Assembly (NCBI RefSeq): GCF_003574655.1
Contig: NZ_QNUM01000001.1
Coordinates: forward strand, 372,001-436,000
Reading direction: 5' to 3'
DNA from: Cohaesibacter haloalkalitolerans
GTDB taxonomy: Bacteria > Pseudomonadota > Alphaproteobacteria > Rhizobiales > Cohaesibacteraceae
Length of the DNA: 64,000 bases
Under the pieces are notes generated by a model that saw only the letters and a list, made by a program, of their open reading frames with translations, searched no databases and was not told where the DNA came from. A program made the position numbers and the translations under genes. Shown here piece after piece: positions 14,292-39,876 of the stretch (position 1 is the first letter of the stretch; each line of letters begins with the position of its first letter).

Positions 14292-14468
14292 GGCAGGATT
14301 CCTTACCAAAGCCTTTTTGTTCCTGTCGATATTTCAATATCTTGTATCGTATTTTTGCCTATTCCCACCAGATCTGTCTTCGCGGCTGCTGCCGACCGGT
14401 TGGCACGTCCCTTGCTCTATAGATGGCAAGCTGGCATCTGGTGTTGCGTAGCCAGCATCTTCTTTCAG

Positions 14469-14512: not shown

Positions 14513-14797
14513 GCGCGTCAAGGGGCCGCAAACTGGTGCCTCTTTTCAAAACGTTAAGAGAGTTTTGCGATAAGACAAGCAGGCTTCAGGGCTATTGCTC
14601 ATGGCTTTTGGTGGCATCTGGAGAATTCACAGCACACTCGAATGCCACCATGAATGACCGATCAGGCCTTGCAGGCTCGGGCAGGGATCGCTACATGTCT
14701 GACAACAGGGTTTTCGGCTTGTAAAGGTCGGGGCCAGCACACGATATTCAGAATGGTCTTGTCGGCCTCGAAGACTTTTCTGAAAATGAGGGTACCT

Positions 14798-15076
14798 ATG
14801 ACGGCTTTACTTCTTCTGATCGATCAGATTCTGGCAATCTATACCTATGTGGTGATTGCCTCCGCAGTGTTCTCCTGGCTGTTTGCCTTCAATATCGTCA
14901 ACCCGCGCAACCAGATTGTTTCTTCCATCTATGAAGTCTGCTGGCGTTTGACCGAGCCGGTGCTGGGGCGTATCCGCTCTGTCATCCCGGCCATTGGCGG
15001 GCTGGACCTGTCGCCAGTCATTCTGCTGCTGGCAATCTTTTTCATCCGGAACCTGCTGCGCACCGGCTTCTATTGA
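14798..15076 (+). CDS. YggT family membrane protein
   Basis: The protein has 92 residues with two hydrophobic segments, one at the N-terminus (about 3-30) and one near the C-terminus, around a conserved polar middle with FNIVNPRNQIV, then TEPVLGRIRSVIPAIGGLDLSPVI. This is the YggT pattern. The family is linked to osmotic tolerance, cell division or plastid development in different organisms; the molecular role is unclear. GAGGG precedes the ATG at 14798. It is followed by a terminator shared with ppa on the other strand. Confidence 0.85.
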   Translation: MTALLLLIDQILAIYTYVVIASAVFSWLFAFNIVNPRNQIVSSIYEVCWRLTEPVLGRIRSVIPAIGGLDLSPVILLLAIFFIRNLLRTGFY

Positions 15077-17379: not shown

Positions 17380-17422
17380 TTGATTGTCCTTGTTTTTCAC
17401 TTCTACTTGATTGGGGTTTGGC

Positions 17423-17770
<348 letters not shown>

Positions 17771-17872: not shown

Positions 17873-17888
17873 TACAAAAGCCGTGCCA
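17873..17888 (-). promoter_or_regulatory. sigma-54 (RpoN) promoter upstream of glnK-amtB
   Basis: Read on the minus strand the site is TGGCACGGCTTTTGTA. It matches the sigma-54 consensus TGGCACGRNNNTTGCW at all informative positions but one (T for C in the -12 element). It lies about 110 bp before the glnK start. Confidence 0.7.
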
Positions 17889-24132: not shown

Positions 24133-25260
24133 ATGACAAAGAAACCGGACAGATTTCTTGCATTGGACAGTTGGCGCGGGCTGTGTGCCTGCGCTGTCGC
24201 TCTCTATCATTTTGGCGCTGTCAGCCATCTGCAATCCTTCGGGCTGATACGGGCATCCTATCTGTTTGTTGACTTCTTCTTTGTCCTCAGTGGCTTTGTC
24301 ATCGCTGCCAACTATCGTGACCGGTTGGCGGAAGGCTTTGGCATTGGCCGGTTCATGATGTTGCGCTTTGGCCGGGTCTATCCGCTGCATTTCTTCATGA
24401 TTCTGCCCTTCATTTTCATTGATGCCGCCAAGGACGGGTTGGGGCCGCAGCTCTGGCAGGCGATATCAACAAATGTGTTGTTGATTCACGGGCTCGGCGT
24501 GAATGATGCGCTGTGGCTGAATTTCCCCAGCTGGTCGATCAGCACCGAATTTGCTGCCTATGTGGTGTTCGCGCTGATCATCCCCTATGTGGGGCCTGCC
24601 CTGTGGCCGTGGCTGATCGCGGTGGTTGCCGGGCCGTTGATTCTGGGGCTGGTGAGCCCGGAGGGGATGAACTCGACCTTCGATTATGGTTTCGTGCGCT
24701 GCCTTGAAGGTTTTGCCCTCGGGGTCATCTGCTTCCGGCTGCGAGAGGAATGGCCCGCAATGACCGAGAGGCTGGGTGTTGTTGCCGACAGCCTGATCGA
24801 GATCGGCATCGTGCTGTTGATCGGCGGGTATCTCACGGTATTCTGGCTCACTCCATCCTATTTCCTCGTGGTGCCATTTATGTTCGCCGTTGCCGTGCTG
24901 GTCTTTTCCCGCGAGGCCGGGTTGCTCAGCAGGCTGCTGTTGCTGCGGCCCTTCCTGCTGCTGGGAACGCTCTCCTATTCCATCTATATGGTGCATGCAC
25001 TGGTGCGCGCAGTGGCGCGGGCTGTCGCCATGGTGCTTGAGCATTTCTTCCATGTGACCCTGTTCGGGGACATGCAGCTTGAGCCGTCGGCTGTCTCCGG
25101 CAAGCTGTTGTCCCTGTCGGGCAATCTGTGGCTGGGCGACCTGTTGCAGCTGTTCCTGCTGGCCGTGGCGATCGGGCTTGCCGCCTTCACCTATCGGTTC
25201 ATCGAGGAACCCGGCCGTAACTGGAGCCGCAATCTGGCCCGCCGGGCGCGCACAGCCTGA
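24133..25260 (+). CDS. acyltransferase 3 family membrane protein (OafA/YrhL-like)
   Basis: This membrane protein of 375 residues has about ten hydrophobic segments. The N-terminus carries the acyltransferase-3 marks: LDSWRGLCACAVALYHFGA with the conserved His, then LFVDFFFVLSGFVIAANY. A late RFIEEPGR motif also fits the family. Such enzymes move acetyl or other acyl groups onto sugars of cell-surface polymers or lipids. GGAGGG precedes the start. No polysaccharide genes are nearby, so the acceptor is unknown. It converges with the transglutaminase gene, 72 bp apart. Confidence 0.9.
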   Translation: MTKKPDRFLALDSWRGLCACAVALYHFGAVSHLQSFGLIRASYLFVDFFFVLSGFVIAANYRDRLAEGFGIGRFMMLRFGRVYPLHFFMILPFIFIDAAKDGLGPQLWQAISTNVLLIHGLGVNDALWLNFPSWSISTEFAAYVVFALIIPYVGPALWPWLIAVVAGPLILGLVSPEGMNSTFDYGFVRCLEGFALGVICFRLREEWPAMTERLGVVADSLIEIGIVLLIGGYLTVFWLTPSYFLVVPFMFAVAVLVFSREAGLLSRLLLLRPFLLLGTLSYSIYMVHALVRAVARAVAMVLEHFFHVTLFGDMQLEPSAVSGKLLSLSGNLWLGDLLQLFLLAVAIGLAAFTYRFIEEPGRNWSRNLARRARTA

Positions 25261-25332
25261 AGACCGGCGCTTGGCTTTCCCTTTTGTCGTCGTGATGAGG
25301 TCTGGTTCCGGCAGCTCTGGCAGACTGTCAGG

Positions 25333-26394
25333 TCAATAGGTTCTGTCGGCTGGCAGTGGATCGCCTGGCAGGATCTGGTCAGAGGATTGCGACTGGGATT
25401 GCTCCTGCGCATGGATTGGCGTGGAGCGCTGGGAGAGGGCCTGAGGCTTCAGGGTGTCCTTTTCCAGCATCACGATGCCCGGATTGGTTTGGCTGGAAAT
25501 GGACTGGCCGATCTCGTTGCCATCCTTGTCGATGGGCATGACGTCGACGGAGACATTCACAAAGTGGTTGCCACCGCCAAGGATGATGCCGGAAATGGGG
25601 CTGACGTCGCCAAAGTCCCTGCCGATCGACAGGGTGACATGTTCCTCCGCAATGACCTTGTTGTTGGTCGGGTCAAAGTCGATCCAGCCCGCTTCCGGAC
25701 ACCAGACCGAGATCCAGGCATGGGATGCATCGGCACCGACCAGCCGTGGCTGACCCTTCGGAGGGTAGGTGCGTAGATAGCCCGAAACATAGCGTGCAGG
25801 CAAACCGAGGGCGCGCAGACAGGCGAGCTGGAAATGGGCGAAATCCTGACAGACCCCGCTTTTCATCTCGAATACCTGACTGATCGGCGTGAAGATGTCG
25901 GTGACGGTGCTGTCATACTCGAAATCATTGAAGATCCGGCTGGTCAGCTCCATGACCCCTTCCATCAGCGGTCGCCCCGGAGGGAAGGACTGGGCACCAT
26001 AGGCCGCGATTTCGGACGTCGGATTGGTGAAATTCGAATAGCAGCTGAATTCGGCCTGATCCACATGATTGCGGTCAAACATCATGTCGCGGACGGTTTC
26101 CCATGCGGCCGTTGACTGCTTGAGCAGCGCGGTCTGGTCCCGCGTCACGGTGACAACGGTTACCGCATTGATGGACAACAGCGTGTGGTCTTCTTCCAGT
26201 GTCAGATGAATTGTCGAATTGCCGAAATAGTCCGTGAAGTCCCTGCGGTGAGCAGGCCTTGGTGTGATCAGCAGGTCGTGATCCTCGATAAACTGCCCAT
26301 CGACCTGACAGGGGGTCAGATGCACCAGATGGTTCGACTGGGCGACCGGTGTCGAGTAGCGGTATTCGGTCTTATGAGCTATGCGATAGCGCAT
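25333..26394 (-). CDS. transglutaminase-like protease, short form (second module)
   Basis: The protein has 353 residues. An N-terminal beta domain (RIAHKTEYRY...) of the type found before bacterial transglutaminase cores is followed by the papain-like core with Cys182 in GVCQDFAHF, His225 in DASHAWISV and Asp241 in DFDPTNN. All three catalytic residues are present. The family hydrolyses or transfers at isopeptide or peptide bonds. The C-terminal tail is rich in Gln and Ser (QEQSQSQSS). It is the last gene of the five-gene run and lies 24 bp after the ATP-grasp/alpha-E fusion gene, so it is surely co-transcribed. I chose the ATG at 26394 (MRYRIAHKTE), the usual family start. Confidence 0.9.
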   Translation of the reverse strand: MRYRIAHKTEYRYSTPVAQSNHLVHLTPCQVDGQFIEDHDLLITPRPAHRRDFTDYFGNSTIHLTLEEDHTLLSINAVTVVTVTRDQTALLKQSTAAWETVRDMMFDRNHVDQAEFSCYSNFTNPTSEIAAYGAQSFPPGRPLMEGVMELTSRIFNDFEYDSTVTDIFTPISQVFEMKSGVCQDFAHFQLACLRALGLPARYVSGYLRTYPPKGQPRLVGADASHAWISVWCPEAGWIDFDPTNNKVIAEEHVTLSIGRDFGDVSPISGIILGGGNHFVNVSVDVMPIDKDGNEIGQSISSQTNPGIVMLEKDTLKPQALSQRSTPIHAQEQSQSQSSDQILPGDPLPADRTY

Positions 26395-26417
26395 GATTGG
26401 GAAACCTTCCTGTCCGG

Positions 26418-29066
26418 TCAAATTCGCTGGGTCTGTTCTTCGGTGTGCGTGAAATAGCGCCGTGTCAGCAGCTCGGTCAGCTGGGGCAGTTTGGAGATCT
26501 GGTTGTTCAGCAATTGCTCAAGGCGACATTCTTCCGTGATGACCTGTTCGATTTCCTTGCCCTGCTCCAACTGCGGTATCTGCGCCAGCTTGTGGCCCTC
26601 GGACAATTGCAGTTCGGTCAGCAGCTCCAGAATCAACCGGTTCTCCTCGCTGCGCAGGCCGATTTCCGGCTCCTTGGGCAGATAGTTGATGTGGTCATGC
26701 AGCGCCGAGATCTGGAAGGCAATGGAGCGCGGGTTGGTCTCGTCAAGCAGTAGCAAATCGATCACCGCCGACAGCGTTGGGGTGATGCGATAGCGCGAAC
26801 GGTAGGTGATGAAGCTGTCGGCAACCTCCAGAATGAACATCAGGCGCCGCGGAGCGTCCCATGACATGCCGGGAGCAAAGATGAGCCGGTTGAGCAGGCC
26901 GGAAAGGTTTTCCGCCCGTTCGATGCGGCGACCGATGTCAAGGAACCGCCAGCCATAGTTGCGGGTCATGTTTTCCATGACCATGCCGGAGAAGGCGGCC
27001 AGCACCATCAGGCCCTCATCGAGCAGGTCGATGACATGGCCGGAGTGCATGAAGCCCGGTTCCTTGAACCATTTCTGGTTGGTGAAAAACTCGTTGAGGA
27101 TGCGCAGGGCTTCCGCCGACATGCGGTCGCGGGTGAGGCCTGCCAGCCGGTGCATGTGGGCAAGGCTTTCCTGGAAGCCATAGGCGCGATCCTTGCCATA
27201 AAGGATGGTGCGGACGAGGCGTTCGATCTCATTCATGCCGCCGAATCCGGCGTCAAACACGCGCGCCTTGGGCGCACGCAGAATGAGCGTATTGAGCGCG
27301 GAAACCACCGTCCGCTGATCTTCTTCCGGTCCGCTGTCCTCATTGAGACGCGCCAGCGCCTGACGGCAGAGGCGGAACTGCCATTCCACGCGCTCGACGT
27401 TGCGGCCGAGCCAGAACAGGTTGTCGGCGATGCGGCTCTGCAGGGAACGTCCGGCCCGGGAATAGGAACCCTGCCGGGCGATGCTGGCCCAGATGCTCTC
27501 GAACGGTTCGGGCTGCTTGTCGGAAACTACCCAGACATCGCGGGTCAGGCCTTCGGGCGAATGCAGACCGATGGCCTGTTGGGCACCGACCGACATGGAC
27601 AGGCCCCCGGGCAGGACGTCATAGCCCTGTTCCTTGCGGGAGCTGTAGAAGCGGATGGCGAACGGATGGGGCTTGAGCTGCTCGCCGGTCCAGCTCGGTG
27701 TGGTCGCGTAGCCGGTTTTCTGCTCTGCCACCATGCTATTGCCGAACAGCATGATTCTGTCGACCAGTGCCAGTTTTCCTGCCGGGTCAAGCGTTGTCGG
27801 ATCCGTTGCCGCGCGCGCTTCACCGGGACGGCCCGAGCCTTCGTGGGCTTCCGAAATCAGCATGCTGTCGAGATTTTCGAGCACATGGGCGCGGCTTTTC
27901 GGGTCGCCCAGCCACCAGCGCGGCGCCTCGTGCAGCATCAGCTCCTCGCCGAGCAGATATTTGCAGACCTTCGGCAGGTAAGGCGCCAGAGCCCTGTTTT
28001 CGACGATCGACGTGCCAAGCTGGTTGGCCATGATGATGCCTTTGTCCCGAATGGCCTGAACCATTGAGGTGGTGCCGTGGACACCGTTCGGGTTCAGCTC
28101 CAGCGGGTCGGCATTGAGGCCTTCGATGGAGCGGACGATCAGGTCGATGGGCTTGAGGCCGGCGAGCGTCTTGAGGCAGATCCGGTTGTTCTGGTAGACA
28201 AGGTCTCCCCCCTCGACCAGAAGATAGCCAAGATAGCGGGCCAGATAGGCATGGGAGAAATAATCCGGGTGCTCCGGTCCCGGCGACAGGATGGCGATAT
28301 AGGGGTCTTCCAGCTCGGTGCGCTTGGTCAGCGTCGATTGCAGCTGCTGAAAATAGGAGGCAAGCCGGATGGCCTTGCTTGAGCGGAACAGGTTGCCCTC
28401 GCAATGGGTGATGGCAATGCGGTTGGCCAGCGCAAAGCCGAGGCCTGCCGGGGTTTCAGCATGGTTATCGAGCACGCGCCAGATGCCGTCCGGGCTCTTG
28501 GCAAGGTCGGCAGCATAGAACTGGATGCCGTTGTAGGCGCTCTGGTTGCCGCGCATCGGCCGCAGATAGGACGGATCGCTCAGCACGAGGGCTGCCGGGA
28601 TGAAGCCTTCGTGCAGCAGGCGGCGATGGCCGTAAAGGTCGTTGTGCATCGCATTGAACAGGCGCGCGCGCTGCGTCAGGGCCACACTCAGCCACTGCCA
28701 CTCTTCCGGCGCGATGATGATCGGGGCCAGATCGATCGACCACGGCTGCTTGTTTTCATTGGGGTCGGCAAACAGATCATAGGCAATGCCGGTTTCCCGG
28801 ACGACCTCGTTCAGCTCGTCCCAATTGGCCTTGCGCTGGTTGGGTGACCAGCGGGAAAAGGCATCGTACCACTGTTGCCAATGGGGCATGATGGCGCCGT
28901 TGACGTCCATCATTTCGTCATGGACACCCAGGAGAGTCTGATAGAGAACCGGATCAGCGAGAGGGGGCTGCATGCTGTCCTGCGCGGTGCTCCCTGACAG
29001 TCTGGCTGTCGGGCTCGCTGCCGGATTTCCTGTCGGGCTTGCTGTCGGATTTTTGGCCGTTTCCAA
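26418..29066 (-). CDS. fused circularly permuted ATP-grasp and alpha-E protein
   Basis: This two-domain protein has up to 882 residues. Residues about 30-530 form a circularly permuted type 2 ATP-grasp domain (ILSPGPEHPDYFSHAYLARY, then VLPGGLSMSV). From about 545 onward it is an alpha-E domain (SRIADNLFWLGRNVERVEW). ATP-grasp enzymes of this type are thought to ligate amino acids or peptides. The Gly-rich segment KPVGESGGYG seen in the separate homologue of this window is replaced by SEAHEGSGRPG, so ATP binding may be altered. The N-terminus holds a short Pro/Ser/Thr repeat (TASPTGNPAASPTAR). The start used is TTG at 29066 with GGAG upstream; an ATG at residue 32 is the alternative. Confidence 0.88.
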   Translation of the reverse strand: METAKNPTASPTGNPAASPTARLSGSTAQDSMQPPLADPVLYQTLLGVHDEMMDVNGAIMPHWQQWYDAFSRWSPNQRKANWDELNEVVRETGIAYDLFADPNENKQPWSIDLAPIIIAPEEWQWLSVALTQRARLFNAMHNDLYGHRRLLHEGFIPAALVLSDPSYLRPMRGNQSAYNGIQFYAADLAKSPDGIWRVLDNHAETPAGLGFALANRIAITHCEGNLFRSSKAIRLASYFQQLQSTLTKRTELEDPYIAILSPGPEHPDYFSHAYLARYLGYLLVEGGDLVYQNNRICLKTLAGLKPIDLIVRSIEGLNADPLELNPNGVHGTTSMVQAIRDKGIIMANQLGTSIVENRALAPYLPKVCKYLLGEELMLHEAPRWWLGDPKSRAHVLENLDSMLISEAHEGSGRPGEARAATDPTTLDPAGKLALVDRIMLFGNSMVAEQKTGYATTPSWTGEQLKPHPFAIRFYSSRKEQGYDVLPGGLSMSVGAQQAIGLHSPEGLTRDVWVVSDKQPEPFESIWASIARQGSYSRAGRSLQSRIADNLFWLGRNVERVEWQFRLCRQALARLNEDSGPEEDQRTVVSALNTLILRAPKARVFDAGFGGMNEIERLVRTILYGKDRAYGFQESLAHMHRLAGLTRDRMSAEALRILNEFFTNQKWFKEPGFMHSGHVIDLLDEGLMVLAAFSGMVMENMTRNYGWRFLDIGRRIERAENLSGLLNRLIFAPGMSWDAPRRLMFILEVADSFITYRSRYRITPTLSAVIDLLLLDETNPRSIAFQISALHDHINYLPKEPEIGLRSEENRLILELLTELQLSEGHKLAQIPQLEQGKEIEQVITEECRLEQLLNNQISKLPQLTELLTRRYFTHTEEQTQRI

Positions 29067-29336
29067 CTTTGTTTTCTCTCCGCGATGCTGGCTTCCTGTG
29101 GAACGCTCGTTCTTCTTGTTATTTCGGATTGGCTGCCCGTTTCCAGCTGCAACATTGGAAATGGAGTTACGCTTTTATCATCTGTTGGGTGAAAATACAA
29201 AGTCGCAGTTTCGCATTCCATGTCCCTGATGATTGCTCAAAGGTCGATGACTGCCCTGAATGGGGGCTGAAAAAGCACAGGGCAGGAGCTGATGGCTCCC
29301 GCCCTGTCGGATCGGTGTCATGCTGGCAACGGAGCG

Positions 29337-32300
29337 TCACCTGACCGAAGCAAGGCGCAGGTCCAGCGTATAAGGGAATTCGGCGCTGTCCTCCAGCTTG
29401 ACCGGGTCGGCATAGCCCGGCGTGTGGCCCATCATTTCGAAGCGTGACAGGCGGCGGCTTTCGGCCTCATAGGCGTTGACCGGGAAGACTTCATAGCCGC
29501 GACCACCGGGGTGGGCGACATGATAGCGGCAACCGCCCAGCGAGCGCTTGTGCCACTTGTCCATCAAATCGAAGGTCAGCGGTGTGTGGACGCCGATCAT
29601 CGGATGGAGGCAGGATGGCGGTTGCCAGGCGCGATAGCGGATGCCTGCCACGGCCTCGTCCTGACGTCCGGTCGGATGGAGCGGAACGGCCACCTGGTTG
29701 ACCGACAGGACGTGGCGCTCGGGATTGAGACCCTTGACCTTGACCTGAACACGCTCGAGGGAGCTGTCGACATAGCGGGCGGTGCCGCCGATGACGCCTT
29801 CTTCCCCCAGAACGTTCCATGGCTCCAGTGCCTGCCGCAGCTCGATCTGCACGCCGTCGTAGTTGACCTCGCCATAGCGTGGGAAGCGGAATTCAAAATG
29901 CGGCGCGAACCAGCCTTCGTCGAGTTCCAGCCCGTGCAGGGACAGATCCTTCAGGACATCGCGGAAGTCCTCGCGGATATAGTGCGGCAGCATGAAGCGG
30001 TCATGCAACTGGGTGCCCCAGCGGACCAGCTTGTTGCGATAGGGCCGTTCCCACATGCGGACAATGATGGCGCGCAGCAACAGCTGCTGGGCCAGCGACA
30101 TCTGGGCGTGTGGCGGCATTTCAAACGAGCGAAACTCGATGAGGCCAAGGCGTCCGGTCGGACCATCGGGCGAAAACAGCTTGTCGATGCAGATTTCCGC
30201 CCGGTGGGTGTTGCCGGTCACGTCGATGAGCAGGTTGCGGAACAGGCGGTCGACCTGCCAGTTCGGAATGAAGCCTTCGCCGGGTAGCGGCACCTGCTTG
30301 AGTGCGATTTCCAGCTCGTAGAGATTGTCGTGACGTCCTTCGTCGACGCGCGGGGCCTGAGAGGTCGGACCGATGAAGGTGCCCGAGAAGAGATAGGAAA
30401 GGCTCGGGTGATTCTGCCAGTAGGTGACAAGACTTGCCACCAGATCGGGGCGTCTGAGGAAGGGGCTGTCTGACGGAGTGACGCCGCCGAGCACAATATG
30501 GTTGCCGCCACCGGTGCCGGTGTGGCGGCCATCGAGCATGAATTTCTCTGTGCCGAGGCGGGCCAGACGGGCCTCTTCATAGAGGATCTGGGTGATCTTG
30601 CTGGCTTCCTTCCAGCTTGAGGCCGGCTGGATGTTGACCTCGATGACGCCCGGGTCCGGCGTGACCTTGATGACGTTGAGGCGCGGATCAAACGGCGGTT
30701 CATAGCCTTCGATATGCACTGGTTGCCCAACATCCTTGGCAGCGTCCTCAATGGCGGCGACCATGGCGGCATAGTCTTCGGCATTTTGCAGCGGTGGCAT
30801 GAAGATGCAGAGGTGACCGTCCCGCGGTTCGACCGAAAGGGCCGTGCGGACGTGGCCGGAGACCTCATTCATCGGGATGAAGGTCTGATGCTCGGTCTGG
30901 TGCCACTGTATTTCAGGGGCTTCGAGCAGCTTGGCCGGATCGGTTTTCTTCAGCTTCTCACGCGGCGTGAAGGGCTTGCGGCGATCGCGCAACAGCGCTT
31001 CCCGTGCCGGAAGAGCCGCATGGGCGGCATGGGGATCCATAGGCATCACATGCGGAAACTGCGTCGGTGGCAGATAGGTCAGTGAGCCGAGTGGCAGACG
31101 GAAGCCAACCGGGCTGTCGCCGGGGATGAGGAACAGCTTGTCGCGGCGGAATTTCCAGACCTCGGACATCCATGACCGGCCATAGGCCTGACTGTTCCAG
31201 GCCTGAACCGGCAGCACGAAACCGGCAGGGGTGCCGAGGCCCTTGTCGAACACCTTGATGATGCGCGCCCGTTCGGCCGGATCCTCGATCTTGTTGTTGG
31301 ACGGATCGATATTGACCGGCAGCTTCTGCTCGACCAGCGAGAAATGGGCCGGATCCTCATAGGCGGTCAGCACGCATTTGGGGTCGATCTTGAGCTTCTC
31401 GGCCAGCTTGAACATGAAGCGCTGGGCAATTTTGGCGTTGGCCGGGGTTTGCGGGGTTTCCTGATCGATGAGGGCCGGGTCTTCCCAGAGCGGCTCCTCG
31501 TCGGCGCGCCAGTAGAGCGAGAAGGCCCAGCGGGGCAGCTGTTCGCCCGGATACCATTTGCCCTGACCGAAATGCAACAGGCCGCCGGGGGCGAACCGGT
31601 CGCGCAGGCGGCGAATGAGATTTTCCGCGTAATAGCGCTTGGAAGGACCAACGGCGGCGGTGTTCCACTCGTCGCCCTCATAGTCGTCAATGGACACAAA
31701 GGTCGGCTCGCCACCCATGGTCAGGCGGACGTCGCCGTCCTGAAGACGGACATCAACCGCATCGCCAAGGGTGTTGATGGCCTTCCACTGCTCATCGGTG
31801 TAGGGCTTGGTTACGCGCGGGCGCTCGAAAATGCGCTGCACGTCCATCTCGAATTCGAATTCCACTTCCGCCTTGTCATGGGCTCCGGTGATGGGGGCGG
31901 CCGAGATCGGATGCGGCGTCGCGGCAAGCGGGATGTGGCTTTCGCCGGTCAGAAGGCCCGAGGTCGGGTCAAGGCCGATCCAGCCGGCGCCGGGAATATA
32001 GACCTCGGTCCAGGCGTGCAGATCGGTGAAGTCATGGTCCGTGCCTTCCGGCCCTTCAAGCGGCTTCACATCGGGCTTGAGCTGGATGAGATAGCCGGAG
32101 GTGAAGCGGGCGGCCAGCCCCAGATGGCGCATGACATGGACCAGCAGCCACGAGCTGTCGCGGCAGGAGCCGGAGCATTTGGTAAGCGTCTCTTCGGGGG
32201 ACTGGACGCCGGGTTCCATACGGATAAGATAATCGATCTTGCTCTCGATGAGGTGGTTGACCTGCACCAGAAGGTCGACGGTCTTGATGTTCTTGCCCTT

Positions 32301-32714
32301 GTGGATCGGTTCGATCTCCTTGAGCAGGGCCTCAAGGAGCGGTGACTTCTTGCCCACTTCCAGATAGGGGGCGAGATCCTTCTTTTCGCCTTCGGCATAG
32401 GGGAAGGGGTAGTGCTCGGCGCTTTCCTCGATGAAAAAGTCGAACGGGTTTATAACCGACATGTCGGTGACCAGATCGACGGTCACGGCAAAGGACCGGA
32501 TCTTTTCGGGAAAGACGATGCGGGCCATATAGTTGCCGAACGGATCCTGCTGCCAGTTGATCCAGTGTTCGGCCGGTTCGATCTTCAGGGAATAGGAGAG
32601 AATCTGGTTGCGCGTGTGGGGTGCCGGTCGCAGGCGGATGACTTGCGCACCCATGCCGGTGGGACGGTCATAGATATATTTGGTCTTGTGCGTCAGAGCT
32701 GCATGAATGGACAT
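29337..32714 (-). CDS. transglutaminase/DUF2126 giant protein (first module)
   Basis: The protein has 1125 residues. The N-terminal 290 residues are a transglutaminase-like domain with Cys184 in GSCRDSSW, His233 in DLHAWTEVY and Asp249 in GLDPTSG, all catalytic residues intact. The remaining 800 residues include the DUF2126 region, with conserved stretches such as LTMGGEPTFVSIDD, GTGGGNHIVLGG and RAEICIDKLF that look like a second, amidoligase-type catalytic domain. The combination suggests both cutting and joining of peptide bonds. It is downstream of the alpha-E gene, 111 bp apart, on the same strand. Function is unproven. Confidence 0.92.
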   Translation of the reverse strand: MSIHAALTHKTKYIYDRPTGMGAQVIRLRPAPHTRNQILSYSLKIEPAEHWINWQQDPFGNYMARIVFPEKIRSFAVTVDLVTDMSVINPFDFFIEESAEHYPFPYAEGEKKDLAPYLEVGKKSPLLEALLKEIEPIHKGKNIKTVDLLVQVNHLIESKIDYLIRMEPGVQSPEETLTKCSGSCRDSSWLLVHVMRHLGLAARFTSGYLIQLKPDVKPLEGPEGTDHDFTDLHAWTEVYIPGAGWIGLDPTSGLLTGESHIPLAATPHPISAAPITGAHDKAEVEFEFEMDVQRIFERPRVTKPYTDEQWKAINTLGDAVDVRLQDGDVRLTMGGEPTFVSIDDYEGDEWNTAAVGPSKRYYAENLIRRLRDRFAPGGLLHFGQGKWYPGEQLPRWAFSLYWRADEEPLWEDPALIDQETPQTPANAKIAQRFMFKLAEKLKIDPKCVLTAYEDPAHFSLVEQKLPVNIDPSNNKIEDPAERARIIKVFDKGLGTPAGFVLPVQAWNSQAYGRSWMSEVWKFRRDKLFLIPGDSPVGFRLPLGSLTYLPPTQFPHVMPMDPHAAHAALPAREALLRDRRKPFTPREKLKKTDPAKLLEAPEIQWHQTEHQTFIPMNEVSGHVRTALSVEPRDGHLCIFMPPLQNAEDYAAMVAAIEDAAKDVGQPVHIEGYEPPFDPRLNVIKVTPDPGVIEVNIQPASSWKEASKITQILYEEARLARLGTEKFMLDGRHTGTGGGNHIVLGGVTPSDSPFLRRPDLVASLVTYWQNHPSLSYLFSGTFIGPTSQAPRVDEGRHDNLYELEIALKQVPLPGEGFIPNWQVDRLFRNLLIDVTGNTHRAEICIDKLFSPDGPTGRLGLIEFRSFEMPPHAQMSLAQQLLLRAIIVRMWERPYRNKLVRWGTQLHDRFMLPHYIREDFRDVLKDLSLHGLELDEGWFAPHFEFRFPRYGEVNYDGVQIELRQALEPWNVLGEEGVIGGTARYVDSSLERVQVKVKGLNPERHVLSVNQVAVPLHPTGRQDEAVAGIRYRAWQPPSCLHPMIGVHTPLTFDLMDKWHKRSLGGCRYHVAHPGGRGYEVFPVNAYEAESRRLSRFEMMGHTPGYADPVKLEDSAEFPYTLDLRLASVR

Positions 32715-32825
32715 AGACTATGTGCCTTTGTTTCAAGCCCCGGATCCCTTTCGGACATCTGCCCATGGACGGATCAGGAAAAGATCAGAATGAAAAGGTT
32801 CGGTTGTGCCGGTTCGGGTGCTGCG

Positions 32826-33851
32826 TCAGGACAAGGTCTGGGACTGTGTCTGTGACTTGGTCTGGTTCTGGCATTCCTCTGCCTCTTTTGACCAGTCTGC
32901 ATGACCGAAGAATGACTGCCCCAACTGTTTGGTGATTTCCATCAGCCGGTTTTGCACCATGTCATTGAAGCCGTGGAAGCGGAGATGCAGATGCTGATCC
33001 TTTGCGGCAGCTTCCAGCTCATACTGCAGCATCTCGACCTCTTCATAGCAGCGGGCAACGCGGCGCAGCTGATAACCCATGTAAAGGTCGTTGAGCATGT
33101 CCTGAATCTCGCCGATACAGTGGGTAAGCGAGCGTGGGAAGCTCTGGTTGAACATCAGGAAATTGGCGACTTTCTTCGGGTCCATCCGGCCCGGCCTGTT
33201 GCGCTGGAAGGCGTGATAGGCTTCGAAGGAGTGCAGCAGCAGCTTCCAGAATTCCAGATCTGCCACCGTCTCGGTCTGGTCGAGGCCGTTGTAGTTGGCC
33301 ACCTGGGCAACCTTGACGTCGAGCAGTCGGCTGGTCTGGTCGGCCCGCTCGATCCACAGACCGAGTTGGTAGAAGCGCCAGCCGGCGTCGCGATAATAGG
33401 TGCCTTCGGTGACGCCCATGATGGCGTCGCAGGTGCGGGCGATGGATTCGCAGGTGCGTGACAGGCGCGCCGCATCCAGATCGCGGTCGCTAAGGCTCTT
33501 CATCTCGTTGTAGGAGACGTTGATATAGGACCACATGGAAACGGAGATCAGCGGCCGCAGCAGACGGGCATTCTCACGCGCCGCCCACAGGCAGGAGAGG
33601 ATGGAGCTCGGATTTTCGCGGTCCGTGATGTAGAATTTGGCTACCTTCTGGGCGGTCACCTGACCATAGCGCTCGGTGAAACGGTCGGTGTCGACATAGA
33701 GGGACAGGATCGAGGCCCAGTTTTCCTGATTGGCGTGATCCTGCCAGAAACCGGCCTGTACATTGAGGATGCGCGCCAGACTTGCGGAGCGTTCGATATA
33801 GCGGGCGAACCAGAACAGGGCTTCGGCGTAGCGACTCAACAGCATGCTCAT
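32826..33851 (-). CDS. alpha-E domain protein (first module)
   Basis: The protein has 341 residues and is nearly all alpha-helical. It begins MLLSRYAEALFWFARYIERSASLARIL, the signature of alpha-E proteins, which always accompany circularly permuted ATP-grasp enzymes. The role may be to bind the acceptor or the product. The tail is a short Gln/Ser/Thr repeat (QTKSQTQSQT). Its start overlaps the stop of the ATP-grasp gene by four bases, so the two products are made together. In the second module of this window the same pair is fused into one chain, direct evidence that they act as a complex. Confidence 0.92.
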   Translation of the reverse strand: MSMLLSRYAEALFWFARYIERSASLARILNVQAGFWQDHANQENWASILSLYVDTDRFTERYGQVTAQKVAKFYITDRENPSSILSCLWAARENARLLRPLISVSMWSYINVSYNEMKSLSDRDLDAARLSRTCESIARTCDAIMGVTEGTYYRDAGWRFYQLGLWIERADQTSRLLDVKVAQVANYNGLDQTETVADLEFWKLLLHSFEAYHAFQRNRPGRMDPKKVANFLMFNQSFPRSLTHCIGEIQDMLNDLYMGYQLRRVARCYEEVEMLQYELEAAAKDQHLHLRFHGFNDMVQNRLMEITKQLGQSFFGHADWSKEAEECQNQTKSQTQSQTLS

Positions 33852-35317
33852 GCGTTGCCTCCGTCATTTGAATTGAATTGGTCCTCGGCAAGCACCCAGG
33901 TATCTTTCGTGCCACCCCCTTGCGAGGAGTTGACGATCAGGGAGCCTTCCTTGAGCGCGACGCGGGTGAGGCCGCCGGGCAGGACCCATGTGCCCTTGCC
34001 GGTGATGGCAAACGGGCGCAGGTCGACGTGACGCGGCACCAGTCCGGTTTCTCCCAGTGTCGGGCAGACCGACAGGGAGATCATCGGCTGGGCGATGAAA
34101 TTGCTCGGGTTGGCCAACAGGGCCGCACGGGCTTCATCAAGCTGTTCCCTGGTTGCCTTGGGGCCGATGGTGATGCCGTAGCCACCGGATTCGCCAACCG
34201 GCTTGACCACCAGTTCGTCCAGATGGTCGAGAGTATACTGGAGGGCGTCCTTTTCCCGGCAGATATGGGTTTCGACGTTGGACAGGATCGGTTCTTCATC
34301 GAGATAGTATTTGATGATGCGCGGCATGTAGGCATAGACCGCCTTGTCGTCGGCGACTCCGGTGCCGAGCGCATTGGCAATGGTCACGTTGCCTTTCAGC
34401 ATGGCGTTGACGAGGCCTTTGACGCCGAGCATTGAGTCCGGGCGGAACACCTCGGGGTCGAGGAAGGCATCGTCGATGCGGCGATAGATGACGTCAACCC
34501 GGCGCGGACCGGCGATGGTCTTCATGTAGACCCTGTCCTCGTCACAGAAGAGGTCACTGCCCTCGACAACGGGCACGCCCATTTCGCGGGCGAGAAAGAT
34601 ATGCTCGAAATAGGCCGAATTGAACATGCCCGGCGACATGACGACCACCTGCGGCTCGTCTTTGTCAATGCAGCCGCTCGGGGCAACTTCGCTCAGTTTG
34701 GAGAAGAGGTTGGTGCCATAGTCTGACACCTTGCGCAGCTTGAGGTCGGCCAGAAGGTCCGGGAAGGAGCGTTCCATCAGGTGCCGGTTCTCGACAACAT
34801 AGGACACGCCAGAGGGTGAGCGCACATTGTCTTCAAGCACCAGAAACTGACCGTTGTCGTCGCGGATGATGTCTGTGCCGGAGATATGGGTATAGACCCC
34901 GCAGGCGGGCTGGAAGCCGACCATGACGTCGCGATAGTTGGAATTGCCAAGCACCAGCTCGGCCGGAACGGTGCCGTCGTTCAGGATGTGGCGTTCATTG
35001 TAGATGTCATGCAGGAAGGCATTGATGGCGGAGACGCGCTGGATGACGCCCCGGTCGATGGTGTCCCATTCCCGTGCTGTCAGGACCCTTGGTATGATGT
35101 CAAAGGGCAGAACACGATCGATCACGTCCTTGTCGCTATAGACCGTGAAGGTGACACCGAGATTGAAAAGCTCCAGATCGGCATCCTTGGACCGGGCCGT
35201 GAGATTTTCAAAATCTGCTTCGTCAAACCTTTTCCAGATGTCTTGCAGCTTGGGGCTGCGATTGGACATCTCGCTCGACATTTCGCAAAAAAATGCGCAG
35301 GGGTCGTAGTTACTCAC
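33848..35317 (-). CDS. circularly permuted type 2 ATP-grasp protein (first module)
   Basis: The protein has 489 residues and the full set of motifs for this ligase-like family: VLEDNVRSPSGVSYV, VVMSPGMFNSAYFEHIFLA, VIYRRIDDAFLDPEVF and the nucleotide-binding VVKPVGESGGYGITIG, ending in LPGGLTRVALKEGSLIVN. It would use ATP to form an amide bond with an unknown acceptor. The start used is GTG at 35317 (SNYDP...), which has AAGG eight bases upstream; another GTG lies nine bases further out. It is the first gene of the five-gene run, so the main promoter should be in the 417-bp gap before it. Confidence 0.92.
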   Translation of the reverse strand: MSNYDPCAFFCEMSSEMSNRSPKLQDIWKRFDEADFENLTARSKDADLELFNLGVTFTVYSDKDVIDRVLPFDIIPRVLTAREWDTIDRGVIQRVSAINAFLHDIYNERHILNDGTVPAELVLGNSNYRDVMVGFQPACGVYTHISGTDIIRDDNGQFLVLEDNVRSPSGVSYVVENRHLMERSFPDLLADLKLRKVSDYGTNLFSKLSEVAPSGCIDKDEPQVVVMSPGMFNSAYFEHIFLAREMGVPVVEGSDLFCDEDRVYMKTIAGPRRVDVIYRRIDDAFLDPEVFRPDSMLGVKGLVNAMLKGNVTIANALGTGVADDKAVYAYMPRIIKYYLDEEPILSNVETHICREKDALQYTLDHLDELVVKPVGESGGYGITIGPKATREQLDEARAALLANPSNFIAQPMISLSVCPTLGETGLVPRHVDLRPFAITGKGTWVLPGGLTRVALKEGSLIVNSSQGGGTKDTWVLAEDQFNSNDGGNA

Positions 35318-35734
35318 GCGATGCACCTTTTTGTTGGCGCTTCAATTGCTCGCGTTGTCTGCTTTTCCGCAGCTATCTGTCTCTGCGGCTTATCTGCCTT
35401 ATAAGCTGTTGTTGAGTCAGTTCCGATGCGGAAAACCGTCCTTTTGAGCCTGAAACGTACTAAATGAACTTTTACGCCTTAAGAAAAGCAATTTTTGGAC
35501 CAAGCGTCATAAATTGTGCAAGGGCCTTTCTTTTTAGCATGTTATGCCGTTTCAATGAGGTCTTCCAACCTCTTTAAAACATTTCCAGCCTAAATTTTAC
35601 CCGAAGTTGTACCGTTGCACATGGCAACTCTGCCTGTACTTTGGGCAACTACTTAAAAAATGCGTGAAATTTGAACAATTGCAAGTCTCAACCGGCTTGG
35701 GGCCGGTGAGACTTTGGCAGGGGATGAGAGCTGT
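35318..35734. other. intergenic region before the ATP-grasp operon
   Basis: This AT-rich 417-bp gap holds the hairpin at 35683-35714 and presumably the promoter of the five-gene module. No gene was found. Confidence 0.45.
35683..35714 (-). terminator. hairpin after the sucrose phosphorylase gene
   Basis: AAGTCTCAACCGGC pairs with GCCGGTGAGACTT (one bulged A) around a five-base loop, 20 bp after the stop. No T tract follows, so it may terminate weakly or protect the 3' end. Confidence 0.5.
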
Positions 35735-37201
35735 TCAGGGCTGAACGGCGAAGCTCGCGGCACCCTTCGGGCCGGTGTGGGAAATGGTTGCTGCCATCTT
35801 CGCAAAGTCGACGGACAGCTTGGCCCATTGTCCCTCGGCCTTCCAGATGAGTTCCAGTTCGGAACGGGAAGGCTGAACCAGAGAAAAGGCTCCGTTGAAG
35901 GCAGGATGTTCGTTTCGGAAGCGGATCAGTTTTGTAAGCGCCGATACGACCGGGGTGGCGAGGGCCGTCTCCACTTCGCCCTTCTTGAAGTAATGGCGAT
36001 TGATGTCCCGGCCGACGTCAGTGGCGGCGAGCAGGTCCATGTCATTCCCGGCGGCCAGAAGGCCGACATAATAGACCTGCGGGATGCCGGGTGCAAAGAA
36101 CTGTACAGCCCGGGCGATCAGATAGTCGGTTTCGCGGCGCCCGATCGCATCGAAATAGGTCGAGTTGACCTGATAGAGGTCGAGATTGGAGGCTCTGGCA
36201 CCGGTGGCCTGACGGGAGGTGCCGTCTGAGCGCTCGTGCATGGTCTCCACCAGATTGTGGATCGCGTCGGGGGCCAGAAGGCCCGGGCGGCCGTCGGCGT
36301 GCGCTCCCACGTCGATGACACCGATGCCGTCATGGGTGTCGAGCACTGTCAGTGCATTGCGCGGGCTGACTTCGAGCCAGCGGGCGAGCGGCGCGGCGTC
36401 TGCCGTGAACAGGGCGTGCATGACCAGCGGCGGCAGGGCGAAGTCATAGACCCGGTCGACCTTTTTGGAAATCTCGATCTGGTCTTGGTAGTAGCTATGG
36501 ATCTCGACCAGCACTTCCATGCCGCGCGCCTTGGCCTTGTGGGTCAGTTCGGCGAGAAAATCATAGGTCTCCGGGATCATGAAGCAGCTGGTGCCCGGCT
36601 TCTTGATGGCATAGCCGGCGGCGTCAAGCCGGATGCAGCTGATGCCGGCTTCGGCAAAGCGCGTCAGGATGCTGTCGAGATAGGCTGCGCCCTTCTCGCT
36701 GTGCACATTGATGTCGATCTGCTTGGGCGTGAAAGTCGTCCAGATCAGATGTTTGCTGCCATCGCCAAAGGTCATCTGGTTGAATGGAAGCCCCGGTCTT
36801 GGGCGGTAGATCGAGGTGAGATCGGCTTCGGTGGCGCCATTGGGAAAGACGGACGCATAGGTCAGGAACATGTCCGCATAGTCGGACTGAGCGCCTTTCT
36901 TGAGGAAATCCTGAAAGGCGACGCCGTCTGCCGAAACATGGTTGACGATGAGGTCGGCCATCACGTCAACCGATGTCGACAGGGCGCGCACATCATCCCA
37001 GCTGCCAAGGCGTGGGTCGACGACAGTGTGATCCTTGGGATCGAACCCGGCATCGGCTCCGTCATAGGGGTCGAAAAAGGGTAGGGCGTGCACCGTTCCG
37101 AACAGCCCTGCCAGCGGGCCGTCGATCATGGTCTTGAGGTTGACAAAGCTTCCTCCGGTGAGCCGGTCGACATAGGTGATGAGCTGAACTTTGTTCTTCA
37201 T
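35735..37201 (-). CDS. sucrose phosphorylase (GH13 subfamily 18)
   Basis: The protein has 488 residues and closely follows the known sucrose phosphorylases from start (MKNKVQLITYVDRL) through LGSWDDV, IVNHVSADG and IYRPRPGLPFN. The catalytic set is complete: nucleophile Asp193 in RLDAAGYAIKKPGTS, acid/base Glu233 in LVEIHSYYQ, and Asp291 in VLDTHDGIGV. It converts sucrose and phosphate to glucose-1-phosphate and fructose in the cytoplasm, although relatives act on sucrose-6-phosphate or glucosylglycerate. No sugar transporter, regulator or phosphoglucomutase gene is adjacent, so it is an isolated gene here. Confidence 0.9.
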   Translation of the reverse strand: MKNKVQLITYVDRLTGGSFVNLKTMIDGPLAGLFGTVHALPFFDPYDGADAGFDPKDHTVVDPRLGSWDDVRALSTSVDVMADLIVNHVSADGVAFQDFLKKGAQSDYADMFLTYASVFPNGATEADLTSIYRPRPGLPFNQMTFGDGSKHLIWTTFTPKQIDINVHSEKGAAYLDSILTRFAEAGISCIRLDAAGYAIKKPGTSCFMIPETYDFLAELTHKAKARGMEVLVEIHSYYQDQIEISKKVDRVYDFALPPLVMHALFTADAAPLARWLEVSPRNALTVLDTHDGIGVIDVGAHADGRPGLLAPDAIHNLVETMHERSDGTSRQATGARASNLDLYQVNSTYFDAIGRRETDYLIARAVQFFAPGIPQVYYVGLLAAGNDMDLLAATDVGRDINRHYFKKGEVETALATPVVSALTKLIRFRNEHPAFNGAFSLVQPSRSELELIWKAEGQWAKLSVDFAKMAATISHTGPKGAASFAVQP

Positions 37202-37427
37202 GGCTGCTTCTCCGGAGCCTGATGCTGTTGCGACCAGGAGGGGTTTCGTGGGTAGGGATGTGCGGCCTTGTCTGCCTCACCCGGCCCCCTTCAAAAGGGA
37301 AGGGTTGGGCACTGTTGCCGTTCCTGCCCTGTCGCGGTTTCTGACCTGTTGGGTGGGTTTACTATATTTTGCCGGTTGCCGGAAGCAGATATTCGCGCAG
37401 GTGTCTTTGCCTGCGTGGGCTGTCCGT

Positions 37428-38243
37428 TCAGATCTTGTTCTGGGTGGCTTCCAGAATGGTCTTGAAAATGGCGACCGGCGGGAAGGGATAATCAATGGTC
37501 TTGCCGATGCCAAGTTCCAGCAGGGCCTCGCGCAGATTGTGGTCGACATTGTCCTTGCACAACAGGATCATCTTGCCACGGCCGTGGGTGGCGCGGGTGT
37601 TGATGAGGCCGGTAAGATAATAGTGCACGATCTTGCTGTAGAACAGGAAGACCAGATCATTCTTCTCGATCGCATCCTTACGAACAGCCAGATGCTCTTC
37701 GTGGATGAACTCCACCAGACAGCCCAAATCCTGCAAGGCCTGTTCGATCGGCAGGACAAACTTGTGCGAATTGGCCACGAGGGCAACGGACAGGGGCTCG
37801 GCCGAATGGTTTTCGCGCAGGGCGTGATAGATGCGCTTTAGCTTGGCCTCGTTGGTCTCCCTGATGCGGTTGACCTGTTCGAGGCGGGCCTTGATGGTGG
37901 CTAGCAGCAGATCATAGTCGATGGGTTTGGTGAGATAATCGTCAACGCCCATCTTCTTGCCCACAAGGATGTCCTCCCGCGTGGATTTGGCCGTCAGGAA
38001 GACAAAGGGTACCTCGTTGTGCTGCGGCAGCCGCTCGCGCACGAGCTTGAGGGTCGTCGGACCGTCGATCAGCGGCATCATGATGTCGCACAGGATGAGG
38101 TCGACCGTCTCGTATTTGAGGATTTCAATTGCTTCCTTGCCGTTGCTGGCCTTCAGCGTCAGGTAGCCAGCATCTTGCAATTCCTCGACGATGTCTTCGA
38201 GCAGAAGCGCTTCATCTTCGATGCAAAGAATTTTTTCCGGCAT
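37428..38243 (-). CDS. response regulator with degenerate second receiver, no DNA-binding domain
   Basis: The protein has 271 residues. Residues 1-120 are a canonical receiver domain with acidic residues Glu9/Asp10, phosphorylation site Asp53 in LILCDIMMP and Lys106 in YLTKPID. A helical linker follows, and residues about 150-271 resemble a second receiver fold (VALVANSHKFV... LVFLFYSKIV... KTIDYPFPP) that lacks the phosphorylation site. No helix-turn-helix or enzymatic output domain is seen. It is 25 bp downstream of the histidine kinase gene and is its likely partner. Confidence 0.85.
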   Translation of the reverse strand: MPEKILCIEDEALLLEDIVEELQDAGYLTLKASNGKEAIEILKYETVDLILCDIMMPLIDGPTTLKLVRERLPQHNEVPFVFLTAKSTREDILVGKKMGVDDYLTKPIDYDLLLATIKARLEQVNRIRETNEAKLKRIYHALRENHSAEPLSVALVANSHKFVLPIEQALQDLGCLVEFIHEEHLAVRKDAIEKNDLVFLFYSKIVHYYLTGLINTRATHGRGKMILLCKDNVDHNLREALLELGIGKTIDYPFPPVAIFKTILEATQNKI

Positions 38244-38268
38244 GGGTCTTTCTCCGATATGTCTTCAA

Positions 38269-39876
38269 TCAGGACGCCAATTGATCAGGCTCGGTCTGAT
38301 TGTCCTTCTGCTCAGGATCGCCACTCTCCGACTCTGCAAGGGCAATGGATGCGGGCAGGAAGATGGTGAAGCAGGATCCTTCCCCGAGTTTGCTTCTGAC
38401 TTCAATTCTGCCGCCCTGCTCCTTGAGGGCCATCTGGGTGAAATTGAGGCCGATGCCTGTTCCTGCGATGCCGCTGGAATTGGAGGCCCGATAGTATTTG
38501 TTGAAGATCTTCGGCACCTCCTCTTCGGGGATGCCGATGCCCTGATCGCAGACCTCGATGGTAATGTGTTTGCCAGTGTTACGGCCAATGACCTTGATGG
38601 CGGCTCCTGGTTCGGAATATTTGATCGCGTTGGACAGGATGTTGCTGACACACTGATCGAGCAGATTCTGGTCGAAGCTGGCGTGTTCGGGCAAACCCTT
38701 GAGATCCCACTGGATGTTGGCGGTCTCGCCCATCTCCAGGTGAGTCATGCAGAGGCGCTCGACGGTGCTGCGGAAATTCTGCTTCTTGGCTTCCATCTTC
38801 AGACCGGCGATTTCCTCGCTCGAGAAATCCATGAAGCGATTGATCAGATATTGCATGCGCTCAACCGAGTCGCGAATGTTGGCGATACGGGTCAGCAGCC
38901 GTTCGGTCGGCATGTCCCCGGCCTTGCGTTCGATGCGCTGGGCGTTGCTGTCGATGATGGCGAGCGGCGTCTTGAACTCGTGGGAGGCCATCGAGACAAA
39001 TTCCCGCTGGGTTTCAGACAGGGAGATCTCTTTCTGCAGCAGCTTGACCAGTTTGTTGGTGTGCTGTTGCAGCTTGCTGGTCTGATCCTTGTAGGTGGAA
39101 ATGTCCGAGAAGATGGCGATCTTGCCGCCATTGACGGTGGCCGACTGTTCGATGCGATACCAGTGGTCATCGTGCAGCTTCACCTCGTTGCGGTGACGGC
39201 CGCGGATCACGTCCTCTTCGCTGAAGTCCTCCGCAGTTGGCAGATCGAAGTCCTTGATCTTGGAAATGGGAGACTGCCGGATCAGGTGGCACTTGAGATT
39301 GGGATAGAGATCGAGCATGCGGGTATTTGCCAGCACCAGCCGATCATCCTCGTCAAACAGGATGATGCCATCATCGATGGCGTTGATCGCATTGACGAGC
39401 AGGTCGCGGTTGTAGCGCACTTCACGCAGGCTGTTCTCCAGCTTCAGTTCCAACTCATACTGGATTGCCTCCAGCTTGGCCTCGTAGGCGCGCTGTTCGG
39501 TGACATCAGTGAAGATGGAAACAAAGATGTTTTCGCAAGCAAACTTGCCCTGCAGGCTGATCACGCGTCCATCCGTCGTTTCATGCTCGATGTCGTGAAT
39601 GGCTTCCTGCTGCAACATGGTCATGCGCCGCGTGACGATTTCATCGAGGTCGCCGGGGCCGTAGTCGCCGCGTTCAGCCATGAAACTGATCAGATTTCTG
39701 AGGGAATTGTTTTTCTGCAGGAGGCTGATCGGAATATCCAGCATCTTGCAGGCGGCGCGATTCATGAAGACGATGTTGAGATTGCTATCGGTGACTGAAA
39801 TGCCTTGGTCTACCGATTCCATCAAGAATGAAATCAGGTTGTTCTCAATGTTTTCATTGCTGATGAAGTAAGGCAT
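38269..39876 (-). CDS. soluble PAS-domain sensor histidine kinase
   Basis: The protein has 535 residues and no membrane helix, so it senses a cytoplasmic signal. Two PAS-like domains span about residues 12-130 and 155-262, joined by a coiled coil (EAKLEAIQYELELKLENSL). The dimerisation domain has the phosphorylated His299 in SMASHEFKTPLAII, and the ATPase domain has the N box (NILSNAIKYSE), G1 (CDQGIGIPEEE) and G2 (GTGIGLNF). All elements of an active kinase are present. The response regulator gene follows directly. Confidence 0.92.
   Translation of the reverse strand: MPYFISNENIENNLISFLMESVDQGISVTDSNLNIVFMNRAACKMLDIPISLLQKNNSLRNLISFMAERGDYGPGDLDEIVTRRMTMLQQEAIHDIEHETTDGRVISLQGKFACENIFVSIFTDVTEQRAYEAKLEAIQYELELKLENSLREVRYNRDLLVNAINAIDDGIILFDEDDRLVLANTRMLDLYPNLKCHLIRQSPISKIKDFDLPTAEDFSEEDVIRGRHRNEVKLHDDHWYRIEQSATVNGGKIAIFSDISTYKDQTSKLQQHTNKLVKLLQKEISLSETQREFVSMASHEFKTPLAIIDSNAQRIERKAGDMPTERLLTRIANIRDSVERMQYLINRFMDFSSEEIAGLKMEAKKQNFRSTVERLCMTHLEMGETANIQWDLKGLPEHASFDQNLLDQCVSNILSNAIKYSEPGAAIKVIGRNTGKHITIEVCDQGIGIPEEEVPKIFNKYYRASNSSGIAGTGIGLNFTQMALKEQGGRIEVRSKLGEGSCFTIFLPASIALAESESGDPEQKDNQTEPDQLAS

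Follow-up and report, generated by a model that had tools for sequence, protein, structure and literature searches.

Within a 64,000-nucleotide stretch of the Cohaesibacter haloalkalitolerans genome (hereafter the window; contig NZ_QNUM01000001.1, positions 372,001 to 436,000), five consecutive minus-strand open reading frames (ORFs) at 25333-35326 give strong Pfam matches. By this domain content the run is a member of the known amidoligase/Anbu-operon family, with three ligase-like and two transglutaminase-fold domains. We see an even chance that it represents an Anbu-less, DUF2126-containing variant of the Alpha-E/ATP-grasp/transglutaminase amidoligase system, serving to produce and recycle a small amide, peptide-like or of gamma-glutamyl type, under nitrogen shortage. 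The genes are, in 5′ to 3′ order, AG, a standalone circularly permuted ATP-grasp ligase (33848..35326; PF14403, CP_ATPgrasp_2, E 4e-159); AE, a standalone Alpha-E helical protein (32826..33851; PF04168, E 2e-74); TGD, a transglutaminase fold joined to DUF2126 (29337..32714; Bact_transglu_N, Transglut_core and DUF2126, PF09899, 1347 bits); FUS, a circularly permuted ATP-grasp/Alpha-E fusion (26418..29066; CP_ATPgrasp_2 7e-105, Alpha-E 5e-63); and TG, a short transglutaminase-fold hydrolase/transferase (25333..26421; Bact_transglu_N and Transglut_core). An earlier annotation made from the letters of this DNA alone (the sequence-only reading) had named these five minus-strand genes and placed them in the amidoligase family, and the ORFs and domain content bear out both statements. 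Its description as two complete versions of one module does not hold: circularly permuted ATP-grasp (PF14403/PF04174) and Alpha-E (PF04168) occur both in adjacent genes and in a fusion, but there is one short TG, DUF2126 is present once and no Anbu was found.

With the longest starts taken, AG/AE and FUS/TG overlap by 4 nt, and gaps of 111 nt and 270 nt separate AE from TGD and TGD from FUS. The start of AG is probably at 35281 or 35269 and that of TG at 26394; FUS possibly starts at 28973. NCBIfam assigned no family to any of the five proteins. The genome holds DUF2126 once and Alpha-E twice. Two Alpha-E genes were detected in 14 of the 18 genus genomes searched (the window's genome counted), and none in the other four, one of which is only 64% complete, or in either of the two searched genomes of other genera of the family. 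The order AG, AE, TGD, FUS, TG is identical in all 13 further genus loci fetched, with identities to the window of 0.84-0.99 for TGD and 0.66-0.96 for TG. When seven of these 13 loci were compared with the window, the ratio of nonsynonymous to synonymous substitution rates (dN/dS) was 0.02-0.19 for all five genes, two infinite (saturated) dS values being set aside. Since the gene order is kept and dN/dS is low, the run is not a product of chance. The nearest named relatives by TGD identity, among the best 80 of 532 and thus in a set weighted towards close kin, are Cohaesibacter marisflavi (92%) and C. celericrescens (84%).

The standard operon carries Anbu, an NTN-hydrolase peptidase, according to the text available from PMC5666114 and PMC6376114. 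Pfam detects no Anbu gene among the five genes of the run, and a whole-genome search with PF00227 found only HslV, beside HslU, and no Anbu. The profile is able to detect Anbu, since in at least 12 sampled genomes it matched Anbu-type genes no more than 6 kb from a standalone Alpha-E gene (these counts are lower bounds, drawing on 13 of the weaker PF00227 rows). An Anbu protein used as query against the window's genome gave no match at E<=1 in a search made without a control genome; when this protein and a second Anbu were run with phmmer, 11 Anbu-like ORFs were detected in the compared loci (loci and genomes are numbered with L and G below). In a tree of 26 AG rows, which has one very long branch (L087, a truncated fusion), the window's AG groups with relatives from other genera. 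This AG belongs to a supported group of six. A separate group of nine, also supported, includes five rows whose loci have an Anbu-like ORF (L086, L098, L101, L103 and L104). The split is not strict, as the AGs of the Anbu-carrying loci L034 and L099 stand outside the group of nine. At L099 (genome G053), an Anbu-containing counterpart of the window's system, the Anbu-type gene adjoins DUF2126, whose frame is interrupted, and FUS-TG is divergent. As far as the available part of PMC6376114 reports, no peptidase activity of purified Anbu was seen with the substrates tried.

Residues 37-480 of AG align with PDB 3n6x, and AG keeps the E165/N167 pair and the glycine loop. The E-x-N pair is present in 39 of 39 true AG rows; the set comprised 40 rows and the window, two of the 41 being truncated fusions and 13 of the other 39 coming from the genus. 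In AE, E20-R21 and E168-R169 are conserved in 97-100% of 40 rows, and a sequence search found no PDB relative. TGD consists of a transglutaminase fold (approximately residues 96-261) and DUF2126 (approximately 304-1043 and beyond). A catalytic Cys-His-Asp triad is present in both transglutaminase-fold partners: C184, H233 and D249 of TGD are invariant in 89 rows (including L001, a copy of the window), and C191, H234 and D250 of TG, which is related to PDB 3isr, are kept in 95%, 99% and 97% of 74 rows. The predicted folds of TGD, from a model of moderate confidence, match transglutaminases and glutamine synthetases; sequence identity of DUF2126 to the latter is 8-12% in the alignments listed. 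Judged by this predicted fold, DUF2126 is a glutamine-synthetase-like ligase domain. This ligase had escaped the sequence-only reading, as had the failure to find Anbu and the altered site of FUS.

The predicted structure of FUS retains the overall ATP-grasp fold, and fold matches of this domain are of the glutathione synthetase type. By alignment, FUS is without the E-x-N pair and the glycine loop of the standalone AGs. It has D200-x-H202 where AG has E-x-N, an A-H-E409-G-S-G-R-P-G loop, a serine instead of AG position K375, and no equivalent of the second R of R282-R283 or of D285-D286. The two halves had been taken as equivalent, but many of the residues that are conserved in the first ATP-grasp are missing from the second. 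Among 58 fusions outside the window's lineage, taken from named and fetched loci, x-R stands in place of E-x-N in 54 and the E-[GS]-[GST]-G loop is seen in none, for which reason much of the family may have a fused ATP-grasp that is a pseudoenzyme. This comparison used seven lineage rows, including L003, a copy of the window. Within the lineage, all 18 rows (14 Cohaesibacter, one Rhodomicrobium, one Filomicrobium and two metagenome-assembled genomes, MAGs) invariably carry D-x-H and an A-[HQ]-E-G-[ST]-G-[RS]-P-G loop, which suggests a site that was kept rather than lost. The D-x-H type also occurs at L014, a TGD-FUS-TG locus. In the FUS tree (63 rows), a quick build with long branches, the window's FUS groups with relatives from other genera. 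Residues 511-851 gave helical fold matches with scores below 10, from which nothing was drawn. A speculative and rather unlikely extension is that the FUS of Cohaesibacter, Rhodomicrobium and Filomicrobium, with its invariant D-x-H-x-E-T instead of the E-x-N of standalone AGs, which the other fusions compared also lack, and its distinct A-[HQ]-E-G-[ST]-G-x-P-G loop, was rebuilt into an ATP-grasp of non-canonical chemistry (a different metal, nucleotide or acceptor). Its partners would be a normal ATP-grasp and a glutamine-synthetase-like ligase, all within one nitrogen-starvation run in Cohaesibacter; if true, this would be a three-ligase pathway to a nitrogen-storing or nitrogen-salvaging amide.

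The distribution of the genes was surveyed in 150 genomes drawn evenly from the phylum, with counts that ignore kinship. A fusion was defined as an open frame of at least 800 aa, the 1145-aa frame G141:C77 being set by hand as standalone; ten split DUF2126 matches were merged by coordinates, and the partial Alpha-E row G105:C89 and the weak DUF2126 row G002:C95 were dropped. Alpha-E is present in 86 genomes, all of which have the standalone form, DUF2126 in 50 and the fusion in 49; fusion and DUF2126 occur together in 46. Standalone Alpha-E accompanies the fusion in 49 of 49 genomes and DUF2126 in 50 of 50, which supports the functional linkage proposed earlier, and 37 of the 86 have the standalone form only. 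AG-AE therefore looks like the core of the system and TGD-FUS-TG like an add-on. Because in this sample standalone Alpha-E accompanies the add-ons throughout, deletion of AG-AE is the informative first knockout.

Within 15 kb of DUF2126, the fusion was found in 46 of the 50 genomes and standalone Alpha-E in 28 (both in 26, fusion only in 20, standalone only in 2, neither in 2), where unlinked genes in draft genomes may reflect a contig end. For the 16 DUF2126 genomes of the same taxonomic order, standalone Alpha-E within this distance was found in none. Among the best 80 named loci, 44 have TGD-FUS-TG, 14 TGD alone, four the window's order (two Cohaesibacter, a Hyphomicrobiales MAG and a Filomicrobium MAG) and two AG-AE-TGD, the rest being mixed; missing genes may lie beyond the compared DNA, and 7 of the 14 TGD-alone loci have 7 kb on both sides. 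The grouping of AG, AE and TGD into one half, as proposed from the sequence, is thus seen without FUS in two of 80 loci, but TGD pairs more often with FUS-TG (46 against 28 of 50). The window's order is also present in genome G128 (locus L100), from another class, and in the Rhodomicrobium genome AG-AE and FUS-TG are on different contigs.

Upstream of AG, a sigma-54-type -24/-12 promoter-like element, TGGTCCAAAAATTGCT, is located at 35487..35502 on the minus strand. The alignment of 14 Cohaesibacter loci has one TGG[TC]CC-N5-TTGCT element upstream of AG in each of the 14, in a region 45-96% identical to the window, and two other 16-column windows of this alignment equal it in invariance. Two further genus-conserved blocks, around AAAATTTAGGC-GGAAA and CATAACAT, lie at approximately 35535-35600 (minus strand) and are possible activator sites. 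Sigma-54-like sites were found in 12 of 42 run leaders, compared with 11 of 221 flanking ORFs, or 9 of 129 with non-coding upstream DNA. For this test the first usable locus per 75%-identity TGD cluster was taken (42 of 43 clusters) and the scanned region ran from 400 nt ahead of the frame start to 60 nt past it. With kinship ignored, such sites precede 10 of 23 runs led by AG and 33 of 76 led by TGD; the corresponding figures are 9 of 169 for genes within runs and 7.8% for random 460-mers. We relied on conservation and run-leader enrichment because matches over the whole window are fewer than in shuffles. A sigma-70 promoter scan was uninformative (4 found, shuffle mean 3.8).

A candidate intrinsic terminator follows the TGD stop at 29277..29307 (minus strand), with a 13-pair hairpin and a T-rich stretch, and 0 of 100 shuffles gave one as stable. 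The terminator scan of 24500-37500 yielded 9 sites against a shuffle mean of 10.9, and as this total is not above the shuffles, only the strength and conservation of the TGD hairpin count. The hairpin is present in 14 of 14 genus loci; the 9 nt past the stem contain five T in six loci and two to four in eight, so that some may be poor terminators. Approximately 75 nt past the hairpin, a non-coding block before FUS (29170..29203, minus strand), conserved in the nine closer genus rows and less so in distant ones (L127), may serve as a second promoter. This arrangement suggests two transcription units, split after TGD. The RNA check proposed earlier, that the five genes form one transcript, is likely to fail, the hairpin after TGD making a single transcript less probable.

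The regulation of relatives points in the same direction as the promoter, albeit not uniformly. In the available text of PMC5491218 the homologous cluster of Burkholderia cenocepacia is lower in an ntrC mutant and listed with sigma-54 targets, and the Pseudomonas putida PP_2685-2688 operon is described as induced under nitrogen limitation in the part of its literature available. In marine metagenomes these domains are associated with urea metabolism domains, according to the accessible part of PMC3597751. What weighs against nitrogen control through sigma-54 is that PP_2686-2688 are induced 14- to 20-fold in an rpoN mutant too, compared with 11- to 15-fold in the wild type, and that the urt genes behave likewise in this mutant (PMC7801951, Table 2). 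Our confidence in the nitrogen-limitation reading is reduced because this induction persists. By analogy to these relatives and from the promoter-like element, the run may be under nitrogen-limitation and NtrC control in this organism.

The window also contains, at 16030-17761 on the minus strand, an ammonium transporter gene (PF00909) preceded by one for a 112-aa protein, which we take to be P-II-like. By these genes there is a near sigma-54 match, TGGCACGGCTTTTGTA, at 17873-17888 (minus strand).

In the amide-forming scheme that we favour, whose substrates, product and step order we infer, a sigma-54 promoter, probably with NtrC, would turn on AG-AE-TGD under nitrogen shortage, as the promoter-like element and the relatives suggest. 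AG, glutathione-synthetase-like and with AE as partner, would convert a carboxylate to an acyl phosphate and couple it to an amine, a chemistry expected from its fold family. A second amide bond would be formed, again at the cost of ATP, by the glutamine-synthetase-like domain of TGD; the transglutaminase-fold domain of this protein, its triad intact, would hydrolyse or transfer the TGD-made bond. FUS-TG, probably a second transcription unit, would supply a specialised partner with an altered ATP-grasp site and, with TG, an additional thiol hydrolase/transferase.

The main alternative for the product is protein tagging, which we regard as unlikely. Here the ligases would put a short peptide or amine on proteins under nitrogen stress, and both transglutaminase-fold enzymes would trim or remove it. 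Iyer and colleagues proposed this for the Anbu system, as summarised in the available text of PMC6376114 and PMC5666114, and the triads in TG and TGD agree with it. However, the run holds no further gene able to be the tag protein, the NTN peptidase proposed for tag processing was not found in the genome, and the fold matches are to small-molecule ligases, glutathione synthetase and glutamine synthetase among them. For FUS itself, a catalytically dead ATP-grasp with a scaffolding or regulatory role for the AG-AE-TGD enzymes is possible but doubtful. The state of the 58 outside fusions, the loss of K375, of the second R of R282-R283 and of D285-D286 in the window's fusion, and the finding that no fusion in 49 genomes is without standalone Alpha-E all suit such a role, whereas the invariance of D-x-H and the loop in all 18 lineage rows speaks against it.

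It is quite improbable that AG-AE-TGD and FUS-TG are two independent pathways which are merely adjacent. The hairpin that separates TGD from FUS in all 14 genus loci could be read in this way, as could the separation of standalone Alpha-E from DUF2126 in all 16 genomes of the same taxonomic order. But 46 of 50 genomes have FUS near TGD and TGD-FUS-TG makes up 44 of 80 named loci, so that the hairpin divides genes which usually travel together, and in the 150-genome sample neither FUS nor DUF2126 is ever without standalone Alpha-E. A recent tandem duplication of one module, which the double occurrence of ATP-grasp and Alpha-E might suggest, is very improbable and was rejected. The halves differ in residues specific to their families, and in trees built per family (26 AG rows and 63 FUS rows) each is placed among its own relatives; the judgement thus draws on residues and similarity rather than on a joint tree.

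Among known systems, the Anbu operon (P. putida PP_2685-2688, Yersinia bercovieri) shares with the run a homologous standalone ATP-grasp and Alpha-E and a transglutaminase-fold partner. Nitrogen-limitation induction is reported there and only promoter-predicted in the window, which is without detected Anbu and has DUF2126 and a fused ligase added. TGD-FUS-TG loci of Pseudomonas, Azoarcus, Azospirillum, Polynucleobacter and others share three genes in the same order; AG-AE is not adjacent there within the compared DNA, and their fusion site is mostly x-R without the glycine loop, in contrast to D-x-H and EG[ST]G in the window. Glutathione synthetase, glutathionylspermidine synthetase and the YgiC-YjfC ligases share the ATP-grasp fold. 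In these ligases the E-x-N motif has a metal role; AG shares it and FUS does not, and we know of no Alpha-E partner for these enzymes. Glutamine synthetase shares its predicted fold with the DUF2126 part, which in the window is fused to a transglutaminase-fold domain; Iyer et al. reportedly described a circular permutation for this domain. B. cenocepacia I35_5080-5083 has a similar domain set (a DUF404/DUF407 protein, a DUF403 protein, a transglutaminase and a large transglutaminase, which presumably carries DUF2126) in four genes, with no fusion named in the available text of PMC5491218. According to the part of PMC12568646 available, fungi have relatives of the fold that make amides, and peptide-spermidine ligase activity is cited for YgiC/YjfC. 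The ATP-grasp/inactive-transglutaminase operon of PMC12239564 is a different one, judged from its available text, and was set aside.

With 86 of 150 genomes carrying it, the Alpha-E/ATP-grasp system is widespread, yet its literature, as far as available and with Iyer et al. 2009 represented through citing papers, names no product, in line with the sequence-only reading. Nitrogen limitation is the growth condition to use in the search for it. A genus without detectable Anbu may let the product accumulate or ease its tracing, and the naturally rewritten active site of the fusion offers a way to tell the roles of the two ATP-grasps apart.

Directly upstream of the run, genes for a sucrose phosphorylase (TIGR03852, over the cut-off), a response regulator and a PAS histidine kinase occupy 35735-39876 on the minus strand, and the same set lies upstream in the C. 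marisflavi and C. celericrescens loci L009 and L010. The downstream neighbour is an acyltransferase gene on the opposite strand. Elsewhere in the window, a perfect TGGCAC-N5-TTGCW match was found at 14401-14416 on the plus strand, approximately 240 nt upstream of a small plus-strand ORF (14654-15076).

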